A stretch of DNA of 30,297 bases, from the IMG/VR virus record IMGVR_UViG_3300042468_000701, positions 1-30,297 of that record; one strand, written 5' to 3'. A model generated the notes under the pieces. That model was not told the DNA's origin and made no database searches. It saw only the letters and a list, made by a program, of their open reading frames with translations. Shown here in pieces: positions 4,285 through 16,231 of this stretch. The position numbers and the translations under genes were made by a program. Source of the stretch: a virus. The stretch's first letter is position 1. Each line of letters opens with the position of its first letter.

Positions 4285-4304
4285 CGATTGAACAACCGAC
4301 AGGC

Positions 4305-4323
4305 TTATCACACACCATCCACA
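4305..4323 (+). promoter_or_regulatory. Two DnaA-box-like 9-mers
   Basis: TTATCACAC (4305-4313) and CCATCCACA (4315-4323) each resemble the DnaA box TTATCCACA with about two differences. They lie upstream of the replication module, which itself encodes a DnaA domain IV protein at 5887. The match is imperfect, so this is suggestive only. Confidence 0.3.
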
Positions 4324-4362
4324 CCCAAACCCACGTTTGAAACAAGCGAGCGATGTTGTTTG

Positions 4363-4371
4363 TGGTATGAT
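4363..4371 (+). promoter_or_regulatory. Extended -10 promoter for the replication module
   Basis: TGGTATGAT is a consensus-like extended -10 element (TGN plus TATGAT). No good -35 is found at 16-18 bases, which extended -10 promoters tolerate. The predicted start of transcription is near 4378, exactly where a long inverted repeat begins. An imperfect small palindrome, GTTTGAAAC (4335-4343), lies in the -35 area and could bind a regulator. Assignment assumes a sigma-70-like factor. Confidence 0.45.
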
Positions 4372-4377
4372 TCTAGT

Positions 4378-4471
4378 GCTGCTCCATGACATTCAACCTT
4401 GACAATACGAGCCGCCCCCGCCCAGATGCCACGACCCCCGGTCATGGAGCAGCCTTCTGGCGCGGGGGTCG
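4378..4471 (+). promoter_or_regulatory. Structured leader with crossed inverted repeats (possible pseudoknot)
   Basis: GCTGCTCCATGAC (4378-4390) is a perfect inverted repeat of GTCATGGAGCAGC (4441-4453). CGACCCCCG (4432-4440) is a perfect inverted repeat of CGGGGGTCG (4463-4471). The arms are crossed: the 5' arm of the second stem lies in the loop of the first and touches its 3' arm. The RNA could therefore fold as a pseudoknot or switch between the two stems. In addition GCCCCC (4414-4419) can pair with the G-run 4491-4496 just before the proposed start codon at 4501. The pairing is seen; control of replication gene expression is inferred. Confidence 0.5.
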
Positions 4472-4500
4472 CTCGCTTTGTCGCGGGACTGGGGGCACGG

Positions 4501-5337
4501 ATGCCTGACGGGTTGCCGACTTACGCGATCGTCGATTGGGGAACGTTCGAGAACTGCCGAACGCGAGAAGTCAAGACGATGAACTGGATCAGTCTCCCCG
4601 TAACGCTGTCTCCGGACTGTGTGGGATTCCTCATGTCGCGCCCAAACGGGCTGAGGAACTACGGGTTGTTCGTGTGGCTTGTCCAGATTGCGGCCAACAT
4701 GCCGAAGCGTGGCGTGCTGGAAGACGCGCGTGGACCTCTCACGGCCAAGCGGATCGCCATGATGATTCGGGCGACCGAGCAAGAGGTCGAAGAAGGCTTG
4801 AAATCCCTATCAGATCCCGAAATCGGATTGATTTCACGATCTTGCACGACTTCGCACGATGTCGCACGGATTCCTTGTATGTCTGATGTGTCTGTATGTC
4901 CTGTTGTCTCTGTTCCGGAAAGCGAACAAACTCCGAGCGTCAAACAAGCGACCGGTTCGGCAAATCGGTTCATCGCTGACCGCCAGATCCGAACGGGAAA
5001 CACCCCGCCCGGATTCTTGGAGTTCTACAACGCATACCCCACGGGCTTCAAATCCGACCGCGACGGGATGCTCGCCCTGTGGAGCGCTCAAGGACTTGAG
5101 TCTGACGCACAAACAATTCTGAATGGGCTGGCCGCGTGGACCACTTGCGAGCGATGGCGAGAGGGGTTCATCGTCGAAGCCCGCAAGTTCATCGAAACGA
5201 GGAAGTGGCTGGACGAACCGCCCCCGCCGAAGCCCAAGGCGTCAACCGATCCGAAGGGGCTTGTGTCTTCCGACGACGCCGTAGCCGCGTATTGGGCTCG
5301 CCAGAAAGCGAAAGGAGTGACCCGTGACACCCAGTGA
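4501..5337 (+). CDS. Lambda O-like phage replication initiator
   Basis: This 278-residue protein has the plan of phage replication initiators. An N-terminal part (about 1-105) resembles the winged-helix DNA-binding region of replisome organizers (DWGTFENCRTREVK, then YGLFVWLVQIA and PLTAKRIAMMIRATEQEV). A flexible middle follows, and a C-terminal FLEFYNAYPTG-type domain (about 178-245) ends ...IETRKWLDEPP, like lambda O and DnaD-type proteins. I chose ATG 4501 because the conserved DWGTFENCR segment must be included; a TTG at 4399 or ATG 4432 cannot be excluded. Iterons lie inside the gene, as the lambda origin lies inside O. It overlaps the next gene by 14 bases. Confidence 0.65.
   Translation: MPDGLPTYAIVDWGTFENCRTREVKTMNWISLPVTLSPDCVGFLMSRPNGLRNYGLFVWLVQIAANMPKRGVLEDARGPLTAKRIAMMIRATEQEVEEGLKSLSDPEIGLISRSCTTSHDVARIPCMSDVSVCPVVSVPESEQTPSVKQATGSANRFIADRQIRTGNTPPGFLEFYNAYPTGFKSDRDGMLALWSAQGLESDAQTILNGLAAWTTCERWREGFIVEARKFIETRKWLDEPPPPKPKASTDPKGLVSSDDAVAAYWARQKAKGVTRDTQ
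4834..4900 (+). repeat. Iterons and T-rich repeats: candidate origin of replication
   Basis: Four imperfect 10-bp units stand head to tail: TCACGATCTT (4834-4843), GCACGACTTC (4844-4853), GCACGATGTC (4854-4863) and GCACGGATTC (4864-4873). A period of 10 is not a multiple of three, so this is a DNA-level repeat rather than a protein repeat. A CCGA/TCGG palindrome (4817-4826) precedes them. A T/G-rich, less GC-rich stretch follows, with TGTATGTC repeated at 4876 and 4893, a plausible unwinding element. The location in the middle of the initiator gene matches the lambda origin layout. Origin function is inferred. Confidence 0.55.
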
Positions 5338-5890
5338 AGCCGCAACCGTGATGGCGTTTCTTCTGTCCGCGTGGCCGCAGGCCGCGAAGTTCTGGCCGAT
5401 CGAGCATCAGGACCTGTTGCAAGAGGACCTCACAAAGCTCGAACTTCATCCCGATCAGTGCATCGCCCGGCTCCGGAAGCTCGCCCGCGACCACGGGACA
5501 ACCCTTCCGGACCTCCGTAAAGGCGTCTGGGCGGCTTTGGAGGCTTTGGACCGCTCTCAGCACGTCCAAGCCGTCGCAAGGCCGCAGGACGGATCGTGGA
5601 CGATTTGCGACCATCTCCGGCACCGATGGAGCGAGCGGAACCCGGACGCTACCCGAATGAGCGATGACGACGTGATGTGGGCTTACGCCGGACTGAGGGC
5701 CAGCGAAAGCAAGTGGCGGGCGGCGGCGCTGGAGTTTGAGACGCGGAGTCTGGGCTGGGACCGGGACCGCGTGCGGCGGGTGCTCACCGATCGGGAGTGC
5801 TACGACGGGCTGGATCTGGTTGAGCGCCGGTGGGCCGCTGACGACGTGGCGTATGAGCGGTTCATGGCCGCTAAGGGAGCGCGGGCATGA
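5324..5890 (+). CDS. Possible replicative helicase loader
   Basis: The 188-residue product follows the initiator and may act like lambda P or the G39P/DnaI-type loaders, which bring the replicative helicase to the origin. The N-terminal 70 residues are helical (MTPSEAATVMAFLLSAWPQ, then a segment ending PDLRKGVWAALEALDR). This resembles the 'loader and inhibitor' fold, in which a small helical bundle ends with a Pro-x-(I/L)-x-(D/E) turn. The rest is rich in W, R and D. No ATPase motif is present, so it is not DnaC-like. The GTG start has AAAGGAG seven bases before it, and the 3' end overlaps the DnaA-like gene in ATGA. Function rests largely on position. Confidence 0.45.
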   Translation: MTPSEAATVMAFLLSAWPQAAKFWPIEHQDLLQEDLTKLELHPDQCIARLRKLARDHGTTLPDLRKGVWAALEALDRSQHVQAVARPQDGSWTICDHLRHRWSERNPDATRMSDDDVMWAYAGLRASESKWRAAALEFETRSLGWDRDRVRRVLTDRECYDGLDLVERRWAADDVAYERFMAAKGARA

Positions 5891-6408
5891 CTCCCCCCAA
5901 GCGTCCCCGCACAACCGAAGGGCTGATCGGCTCGAACCTCGCACTTCTGCAAGGCGCGTTCGAGGCGTACGTCAAGGGTCCGCTCGGCGTGGAGGGAACC
6001 AGACGACGCCGGTACGTCCAATCGCTGCTTGATCGCATGTGGCGGCTGGAGAAACGGATGCTCGCGGAGCGTGTGCCGGTCAAGCGGTTCTCAAACCCTC
6101 GCATGGAGGCCGAGTACCGACGTGCTGTTCAGGTCTGCGGTGTTGACGACGCGACCGTGATCGGACCGCTCCGCCCCGTGCGAGAGGTGGCGTTCCGGTG
6201 GGCGTGGTGTACGGTGGCGCGTCAGCGTGGGTACTCGCTGCCGGAGGTCGCACGGTCGCTGGGAAGGCGTAACCATTCGTTCCTGTGCGAGATTGAGAAG
6301 AACATGCGAGAGAAGAAGACTCGGCCCGCGTGTGTTGCGTGGGAACTTGCCGAGATGATCCGTAACGAGTTGACCATGCCCGCGAGCGGGCGGAAGGAGG
6401 CGGTGTGA
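5887..6408 (+). CDS. Stand-alone DnaA domain IV-like DNA-binding protein
   Basis: The 173-residue protein lacks the DnaA ATPase. Its C-terminal part (about 100-150) matches the DnaA domain IV helix-turn-helix pattern: RPVREVAFRWAW, then RGYSLPEVARSLGRRNHS, where residues 126-131 (GRRNHS) replace the usual GGRDHT signature that reads the DnaA box. The N-terminal half is basic and helical with KRPRTTEG at its start. It probably binds DNA at or near the phage origin, or competes with host DnaA. It is translationally coupled to the loader-like gene (ATGA) and to a membrane protein gene after it (overlap at GTGA). Confidence 0.65.
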   Translation: MTPPKRPRTTEGLIGSNLALLQGAFEAYVKGPLGVEGTRRRRYVQSLLDRMWRLEKRMLAERVPVKRFSNPRMEAEYRRAVQVCGVDDATVIGPLRPVREVAFRWAWCTVARQRGYSLPEVARSLGRRNHSFLCEIEKNMREKKTRPACVAWELAEMIRNELTMPASGRKEAV

Positions 6409-14611: not shown

Positions 14612-14817
14612 ACGTGAACGACTCCCACGAACTGCCGCCCCGGTGCCGTTGCGGGGTCAAGATCCCGCCCCGGTTCGTCATGTGCAACGACTGTTTTCGC
14701 AAGGGTGGGCCGCCCCTCCCGCCCGACCGCTACAACAGTCGGCCCGACAGGGACACACGCACGCTGTTGCCCGGCGAAGGCAAGCACCGTTACGGGGTGA
14801 CGCCGCCCAATGACTGA
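14608..14817 (+). CDS. Small zinc-ribbon protein next to terminase
   Basis: A 69-residue protein with CRCG near residue 13 and CNDC at about 26-29, a compact four-cysteine zinc ribbon, followed by a Pro/Arg-rich tail (PPLPPDRYNSRPDRDTR). It starts with GTG 14608, overlapping the previous stop, and it overlaps the terminase start by eight bases. Tiny zinc proteins or HNH remnants are common near terminases; no HNH core is present here. The function is unknown. Confidence 0.55.
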   Translation: MNVNDSHELPPRCRCGVKIPPRFVMCNDCFRKGGPPLPPDRYNSRPDRDTRTLLPGEGKHRYGVTPPND

Positions 14818-16231
14818 CCCACTCGCACCCGAGTCCCGCCCGTTCACCGTCACGCCCGGTAGCCCCGCAGAACGGCTCATGTACTGCCGTGATCTTGTCA
14901 TCATGGCCGACGGGCCGACCGGCTCAGGTAAGACACGCCCGGCGCTGGAGAAAGCGTATTTCTGTGCGTCACACTGGCCCGGTACCCGCGTGCTCCTGCT
15001 TCGAAAGGCCAAGGCACACGCCGCCACGACGATTATGACGACGTGGGAAACGCAGGTGTGTCCCGAGGGCGATCCCGCCGCCAAGCTCCAAGCCCGCAAC
15101 TACAAGAGCCCCGCGTACTGCTTCCCGAACGGGTCTGTCGTCGCCGTGGACGGCATGTACGACGGGTCGGGGTATAACCAAGCGGTGATGGGAACCGAGT
15201 GGGACATCATCATTCCGGACGAGGGGACGCAGTACAGCGAAGACGACGCCATGCGGCTGATCGGGCGACTGAACCGCATCGCACCCACGCCGGAGCGGAT
15301 CCCGTTCAATCAAATCATCTTCCCGTGCAACCCGGACGCCCCGCGTCACTGGCTCTGGCAGTGGCACCTTACAGGCAAGCTGACCCGCATCCCCTCGCGG
15401 CTGGAGGACAACCCGGTCTTCTACGACGGCACCAACTGGACCCTGCAGGGCCTGAAATACCTCGCCACGGTAGACAAGTACACGGGTGTCATGCGCGAGC
15501 GGAACCGCTTCGGGCGGTGGGTTGGTGCGGAGGGGATGATCTACGACGAGTGGGACGAGAAGATGCACATTGTGGACCGGCTCCCGCCCGGATCCGAAGA
15601 CTGGTGGCGTGTCCGCTCCATCGACTTCGGCTATCGCGAGCCGTTCGTCTGTCTCTGGGGTGTCGTGGACCCCAACGGGCGAATCTACATCGAGCGTGAG
15701 TACGTCCGCTGCAACAAGACCGTGAGCAGGCACGCCCCCGAGTTGAAGCGGCTCACCCCCGACGAAGGGCTGGTTCAGTTCACCGTCGCCGACCATGACG
15801 CCGAGGACCGGGCCACGCTTGCCGAGAACGACATCGACACGGTTCCGGCGCTGAAACCCCGCAAGGACACGGATTGGGCCGCTCACTTTGATTGGGTGAA
15901 GCGTCGGCTTCAACCTGCGGCGGACGGGTTCCCGCGTCTGTTTGTCGTGCGGGACGCGGTGAAGGGTGGCGGGGGACGCGAACCCTTGCTCGGCAACAAG
16001 CCGTGTGGCATCATCGAGGAAATCACCGGGTACCAGTGGGAGGAGCCCAAGCCAGACAAGGCGTCCCGCGAGCGTCCGGCACAGGTGAACGATCACAGCA
16101 TGGACGCACTTCGGTACCTGTGCTTGGCGGTGGATCGGTGGTTCGACGGTGAGGCCGAGAGGGACAAGCCGGACTACGAAGACGGAACCATCGGTGAGGC
16201 GTTGGGGTTGAACGAGGAGGACGATGACTGA
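14810..16231 (+). CDS. terL: Terminase large subunit
   Basis: The 473-residue protein is the DNA-packaging motor. The N-terminal ATPase has Walker A GPTGSGKT (35-42) and Walker B IIIPDE with the catalytic pair D137/E138. The C-terminal RNase H-like nuclease has SIDFGY (D272), ADHD (D328, D330) and NDHSMDALRY (D428, D432), the acidic residues expected for the headful/cos nuclease. It cuts concatemers and pumps DNA into the procapsid through the portal encoded next, whose start overlaps this gene by eight bases. The length is normal for the family. Confidence 0.9.
   Translation: MTDPLAPESRPFTVTPGSPAERLMYCRDLVIMADGPTGSGKTRPALEKAYFCASHWPGTRVLLLRKAKAHAATTIMTTWETQVCPEGDPAAKLQARNYKSPAYCFPNGSVVAVDGMYDGSGYNQAVMGTEWDIIIPDEGTQYSEDDAMRLIGRLNRIAPTPERIPFNQIIFPCNPDAPRHWLWQWHLTGKLTRIPSRLEDNPVFYDGTNWTLQGLKYLATVDKYTGVMRERNRFGRWVGAEGMIYDEWDEKMHIVDRLPPGSEDWWRVRSIDFGYREPFVCLWGVVDPNGRIYIEREYVRCNKTVSRHAPELKRLTPDEGLVQFTVADHDAEDRATLAENDIDTVPALKPRKDTDWAAHFDWVKRRLQPAADGFPRLFVVRDAVKGGGGREPLLGNKPCGIIEEITGYQWEEPKPDKASRERPAQVNDHSMDALRYLCLAVDRWFDGEAERDKPDYEDGTIGEALGLNEEDDD

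Follow-up and report, generated by a model that had tools for sequence, protein, structure and literature searches.

Initiator gene and its surroundings

The window analysed here is a complete IMG/VR record, 30,297 bases long and classed as linear, and is the genome of a tailed phage or a large fragment of one. Helicase-like and DNA methylase genes lie in its left part, a terminase gene lies at 14810-16231 and structural genes are found to the right of the terminase. The N-terminal half of the terminase is nearly identical among phages and the C-terminal half differs (window 14810-16231, L002-L005), a sign of recent recombination within the gene.

The gene at 4501-5337 (plus strand) encodes a replication initiator of 278 aa with an N-terminal domain of DNA-binding type, a disordered linker and a C-terminal domain common to phage replication-initiation and primosomal proteins; the assignment was based on PHROGs 9474, 9327 and 270, on two homologues (L006 and L013) that align from the ATG at 4501 and on an AlphaFold2 model. 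The open reading frame as listed begins with a TTG at 4399, and the start most likely lies at the ATG at 4501 because homology to the relatives begins there. The three PHROGs, all of them replication-initiation or primosomal families, were matched via the common C-terminal domain with E values of 3e-4 to 1.6e-3 (residues 199-289 of the frame counted from the TTG at 4399, E = 3e-4), and the homologue L013 matched the same families at 2e-17. These matches, together with the DnaB helicase gene adjoining the initiator in the relatives, identify the gene as that of a replication initiator. The AlphaFold2 model was computed from three sequences and had a low mean confidence (pLDDT 59.8); residues 40-115 were modelled confidently, residues 116-165 had a pLDDT below 50 and the C-terminal part was helical, so that a disordered linker (residues 116-165, about nt 4846-4995) is predicted to separate two structured parts. 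No solved structure was found at E < 0.3 in a structure search with the model, and a search of a viral library returned weak helix-turn-helix and replisome-organizer matches; the model weakly suggests an N-terminal domain of helix-turn-helix type, which may be a winged helix. A first reading made from the letters of the window (the sequence-only reading) had called the gene O-like. The term suits the presumed way of working of the protein and fails as a statement of descent, since lambda O belongs to different PHROGs (277, 2365 and 391 among others), and neither the window protein nor its homologues matched any of these.

A 188-aa protein without a Pfam or PHROG match is encoded at 5324-5890 (plus strand), in the slot where a DnaB-type helicase comes after the initiator in L013 and in G002, the contig that carries L006; no DnaB helicase was found in this slot of the operon in the present record. 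The 188-aa product could possibly be a helicase loader; a loader of the SPP1 gp39 type was considered and rejected, as the sequence gave no support for it. The adjoining gene at 5887-6408 (plus strand), conserved in G002 and in a further contig, G004, encodes a weakly DnaA domain IV-like helix-turn-helix protein (Bac_DnaA_C E = 0.085, and 2e-5 in a homologue; below the Pfam cut-off), for which the role of a phage-encoded DnaA-box reader is conceivable. G002 and G004 have an almost identical copy of the intergenic block 4300-4372 upstream of the initiator, with CAGGCTTATCACACACCATCCACAC and the extended -10-like TGGTATGAT; the block was found in no other viral contig searched, and it is likely the promoter/operator of the replication operon. 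A scan with the promoter-like pattern added just chance matches.

Iteron array and adjoining tract

Four iterons of 10 bp are arranged head to tail on the plus strand within the initiator gene: TCACGATCTT (4834-4843), GCACGACTTC (4844-4853), GCACGATGTC (4854-4863) and GCACGGATTC (4864-4873). Residue 112 is encoded at 4834, and the array therefore begins where the N-terminal domain ends. With a mean pairwise identity of 0.683, 4834-4873 is the top-scoring four-copy 10-bp array of the 30-kb record. In 300 dinucleotide shuffles of the whole window no score was as high (maximum 0.65), and the array likewise exceeded all 1000 shuffles of the initiator gene at periods 7-25 and all 2000 synonymous recodings of that gene; the repetition therefore lies in the DNA itself and is not imposed by the protein sequence. 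Both the four 10-mers from 4834 and their nature as a repeat not driven by codons had been proposed in the sequence-only reading and are borne out here. TRF also detected the array (4835-4868, period 10). Copies of the iterons elsewhere in the record are single and scattered and look like chance matches.

On the 3' side of the iterons lies a T-rich, A-poor tract (4874-4916, plus strand), which TRF and nearest-neighbour energy mark as a candidate DNA unwinding element. The two copies of TGTATGTC that had been reported there lie at 4876-4883 and 4893-4900, and a repeat of period 18 was detected by TRF at 4876-4913. Unwinding energy had been named as a check, and its outcome was favourable: the stretch 4870-4923 is among the least stable of the record by nearest-neighbour energy, less stable 50-bp windows making up only 0.13% of it. 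Cumulative GC skew, named as another check, gave no support for an origin at 4.8 kb, as it rises steadily along the record without a turn there; most genes, however, share one orientation, and the record may cover just part of a genome. The CCGA/TCGG palindrome that had been placed before the iterons is present (CCGAAATCGG, 4817-4826); it was dropped as a feature for its short arms (4 bp) and for want of an equivalent in the relatives, and it carries no weight as part of an origin.

Homologous initiators

Related contigs were found by means of the terminase, and one of them, G002, has an initiator that is 35% identical (locus L006). Single-protein and alignment scans of viral contigs yielded only two homologues of the initiator, L006 and L013; two scans of cellular genomes yielded none, and a tblastn search of phage records with the initiator gave no match. 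An array occupies the corresponding position of the gene in both homologues (identity about 27-35%). In L006, seven CATCG-containing 11-mers form an 11-bp array of CATCGATCGAC type, which is followed by TCCCTTCCCTTCCCTTCCTTCCTTTCCTTCC, a pyrimidine run of 31 nt that is the longest in that locus; in L013, a AAGTGACGGTC array with a period of 11 bp and 9.6 copies is followed by the purine tract AGGAGAGGAGAGGATAGGAGAGG. Counted from the start of the initiator gene, the array begins at nt 334 in the window, nt 333 in L006 and nt 339 in L013, and each array exceeded synonymous recoding (0/2000 each); the array of the window is the weakest of the three (4 copies, 68% identity). Measured in 50-bp windows, the tract ranks among the lowest in stability in each of the three. 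The repeat sequences are unrelated among the three homologues, with a period of 10 bp in the window and of 11 bp in L006 and L013.

What is kept is the layout (place in the gene, order of the parts and a tract of low stability); the sequence is not. Such turnover of sequence would follow if every initiator recognised binding sites of its own. The sequence-only reading had anticipated a repeat conserved at the DNA level and would have given up the origin if relatives did not keep it; position and order are indeed shared across the phages, whereas the DNA sequence is not and the period shifts between 10 and 11 bp. Conservation of the repeat at the DNA level is a misleading test, because position and spacing persist while the repeat sequence changes completely. 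In the initiator of G004 the N-terminal part is unrelated, and the linker (L010 5857-5926) has a significant 18/12/6-bp repeat, PTPTPNPIPNPN; this could reflect repetition in the protein or a further origin within a gene.

Survey of phage initiators

Arrays with periods of 10, 11 or 19-23 bp were sought in phage initiators that have the common C-terminal domain, with a family-wise shuffle threshold of 0.01 and with 48 neighbouring genes as controls. A significant array was present in 14 of the 22 initiators and in 0 of the 48 other genes (Fisher p = 1.7e-9). The sample includes two related pairs, Pacha/CF183a and Lagaffe/nd4, part of the arrays are simple 5-bp repeats, and the control genes are unmatched for disordered linkers. 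The remaining initiators (8/22), and both Gordonia/Arthrobacter-type extremes, had no such array or just short-period repeats. Nearly all significant arrays lie upstream of the C-terminal domain; that of Birdsong lies within the N-terminal part. Four 11-mers in psageK9, GCACGGACCGT, GCACCACTCGT, GCACGAAGCGT and GCACGGATGGT, start with GCACG and are strikingly like those of the window. When periods of 4-30 bp were scanned, L006, L013, psageK9 and Rousseau showed an 11- or 22-bp array followed by a tract with a period of 5 to 9 bp, and other initiators showed periods of 12, 15 or 18 bp or nothing. Strong arrays of 15 and 18 bp, and not of 10 or 11 bp, were observed in L029 (phiPsal1, 2376-2435) and L039 (Ab105, 2293-2364).

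Known origins in initiator genes

The origin lies in the middle of the O gene in lambda and Stx phages (PMC7466680), oriL of SPP1 lies within gene 38 (PMC6316719), and the origin repeats of Tuc2009 and TP901-1 lie inside the rep genes (PMC8965321). The earlier statement that the lambda O gene contains the origin thus agrees with the literature (PMC7466680), and the array statistic, with lambda O as positive control, recovered the known iterons at 23-24 bp. The closest match to the layout of the window is Tuc2009 Rep rather than lambda O. The record of Tuc2009 rep2009 (orf16) is annotated 'contains origin of replication', and the gene has four 11-bp repeats (TTGGCAACCAA, GTGTCAACCAT, TCCGCAACCAA and ATGACAACCAA, nt 338-381) against four 10-bp repeats from nt 334 in the window; as in the window, the repeats are directly followed by a low-complexity, low-GC tract, which begins with AGGATAGGATAGGAGAGG. 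The repeat sequence differs, and the tract is purine-rich in Tuc2009 but T-rich in the window; homology between the two proteins was not found (Rep2009 belongs to PHROG 5708, hhalign probability 1.3%). Lambda O and ori-lambda share with the window four iterons in the middle of the gene, located in the linker that follows the DNA-binding domain, and an adjoining AT-rich tract (PMC7466680). The lambda iterons, however, are dyad-symmetric, 18 bp long and spaced at about 20-24 bp, an arrangement not found in the window, where 10-bp direct repeats stand head to tail. SPP1, compared by description, also has direct repeats and an AT-rich unwinding element inside its initiator gene (PMC6316719), but has a second origin, oriR, besides oriL. 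TP901-1 rep (ORF13) likewise has a repeat-rich origin inside the gene (PMC8965321), although its scan gave an AT-rich 15-bp period and not one of 10-11 bp.

Arrays in linkers could also be a by-product of mutation, left by slippage in unconstrained coding sequence and without any binding function. They do sit in predicted disordered linkers, just simple 5-, 6- or 7-bp repeats are seen in the initiators of Yvonnetastic, Lagaffe and 10KY502B, and the lack of matching for such linkers among the 48 control genes is in favour of this explanation; slippage in frame should, however, favour multiples of three, whereas the periods are 10, 11 or 22 bp in the three homologues, psageK9, Rousseau, CF183a and Tuc2009. 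Slippage is made very unlikely, moreover, by an array start at nearly the same codon in the three homologues with a low-stability tract after each, and by the layout of Tuc2009, which is identical in kind and belongs to a documented origin.

Origin and alternatives

The stretch 4834-4916 is very probably the core of the theta-type origin of this phage, situated in the part of its own initiator gene that codes for the linker. An origin with iterons in the initiator gene, as first suggested by the sequence-only reading, is the best-supported interpretation, and its layout recurs in the homologues, in distant initiators and in Tuc2009. It appears well supported by the array, the predicted disordered linker, the low-stability tract, the recurrence of the layout and the analogy with the documented Tuc2009 origin. 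Among the features of an origin embedded in an initiator gene (functional class of Tuc2009, lambda and SPP1 oriL), tandem repeats within the coding sequence as putative binding sites, an adjacent, easily unwound tract and a surrounding gene for a replication initiator are present. The N-terminal domain of the 4501-5337 protein would bind the four 10-bp iterons, which, being about one helical turn apart, would therefore share one face of the helix; the resulting complex would open the adjoining T-rich tract of low stability, and the C-terminal domain would recruit the replicative helicase, supplied by the host or the phage, directly or via a loader. With so little constraint on the protein sequence of the linker, the sequence of the iterons and the DNA-binding domain could change together and move as one cassette.

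Still less probable than slippage is a true origin elsewhere, for example in the conserved intergenic block at 4300-4372 or close to the DnaA-like gene, with the linker array as an accessory. Three related phages have the same TTATCACACACCATCCACAC, no 50-bp window of the record is less stable than that at 4358, and the DnaA domain IV-like protein is encoded nearby. Yet the block also stands before the unrelated initiator of G004, as would fit a promoter region common to these phages; L013 is without it but keeps the iteron layout, and no iteron array was found in 4300-4372. The least probable alternative is that the array is an autoregulatory operator by which the initiator, bound within its own gene, would block and so limit its own transcription rather than start replication: plasmid iteron initiators often autoregulate, but between the promoter-like site and the array, which lies downstream, there are about 460 bp, an operator has no need for the adjoining low-stability tract that is present in all three homologues, and an operator is compatible with an origin, so that both could hold.

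An origin within the initiator gene is a design already known, of which the window is a further example; what it adds is that the conserved feature is the layout, across unrelated DNA-binding domains. A general rule is put forward tentatively, its chances being judged somewhat below even: phage initiators with unrelated DNA-binding domains would hold, in linker-coding DNA, a two-part origin, with iterons spaced at one or two helical turns and, after them, a strand-asymmetric tract of short period; sequence would be freely replaced while codon position and order persist. If the rule is true, the initiator gene is a one-piece, swappable replicon with a specificity that can be read from its sequence alone. 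An uncultured phage lineage gains a precise, testable origin, and the conservation test is corrected, as such origins keep position and spacing and are missed by DNA comparison. The simple array statistic recovers the lambda and Tuc2009 origins and gives candidates in a dozen further phages, and origins could therefore be predictable from sequence for many phages that carry initiators of this type.

Leader of the initiator gene

The 5' leader preceding the initiator coding sequence (window 4366-4500; L006 1395-1533; L010 5228-5411) resembles a structured RNA and, from base complementarity, possibly contains an H-type pseudoknot. In the window the stem arms lie at 4378-4390/4441-4453 and 4432-4440/4463-4471. 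The arms differ in sequence among the three phages yet can still pair (13, 15 and 8 bp; shuffle p 0/2000, 0/2000 and 0.03), with folding z-scores of -3.6, -4.4 and -3.1; no relevant match was found in Rfam. Since the leader also precedes the unrelated initiator of G004, it may be a shared control element, and the putative pseudoknot may add a conserved layer of control.
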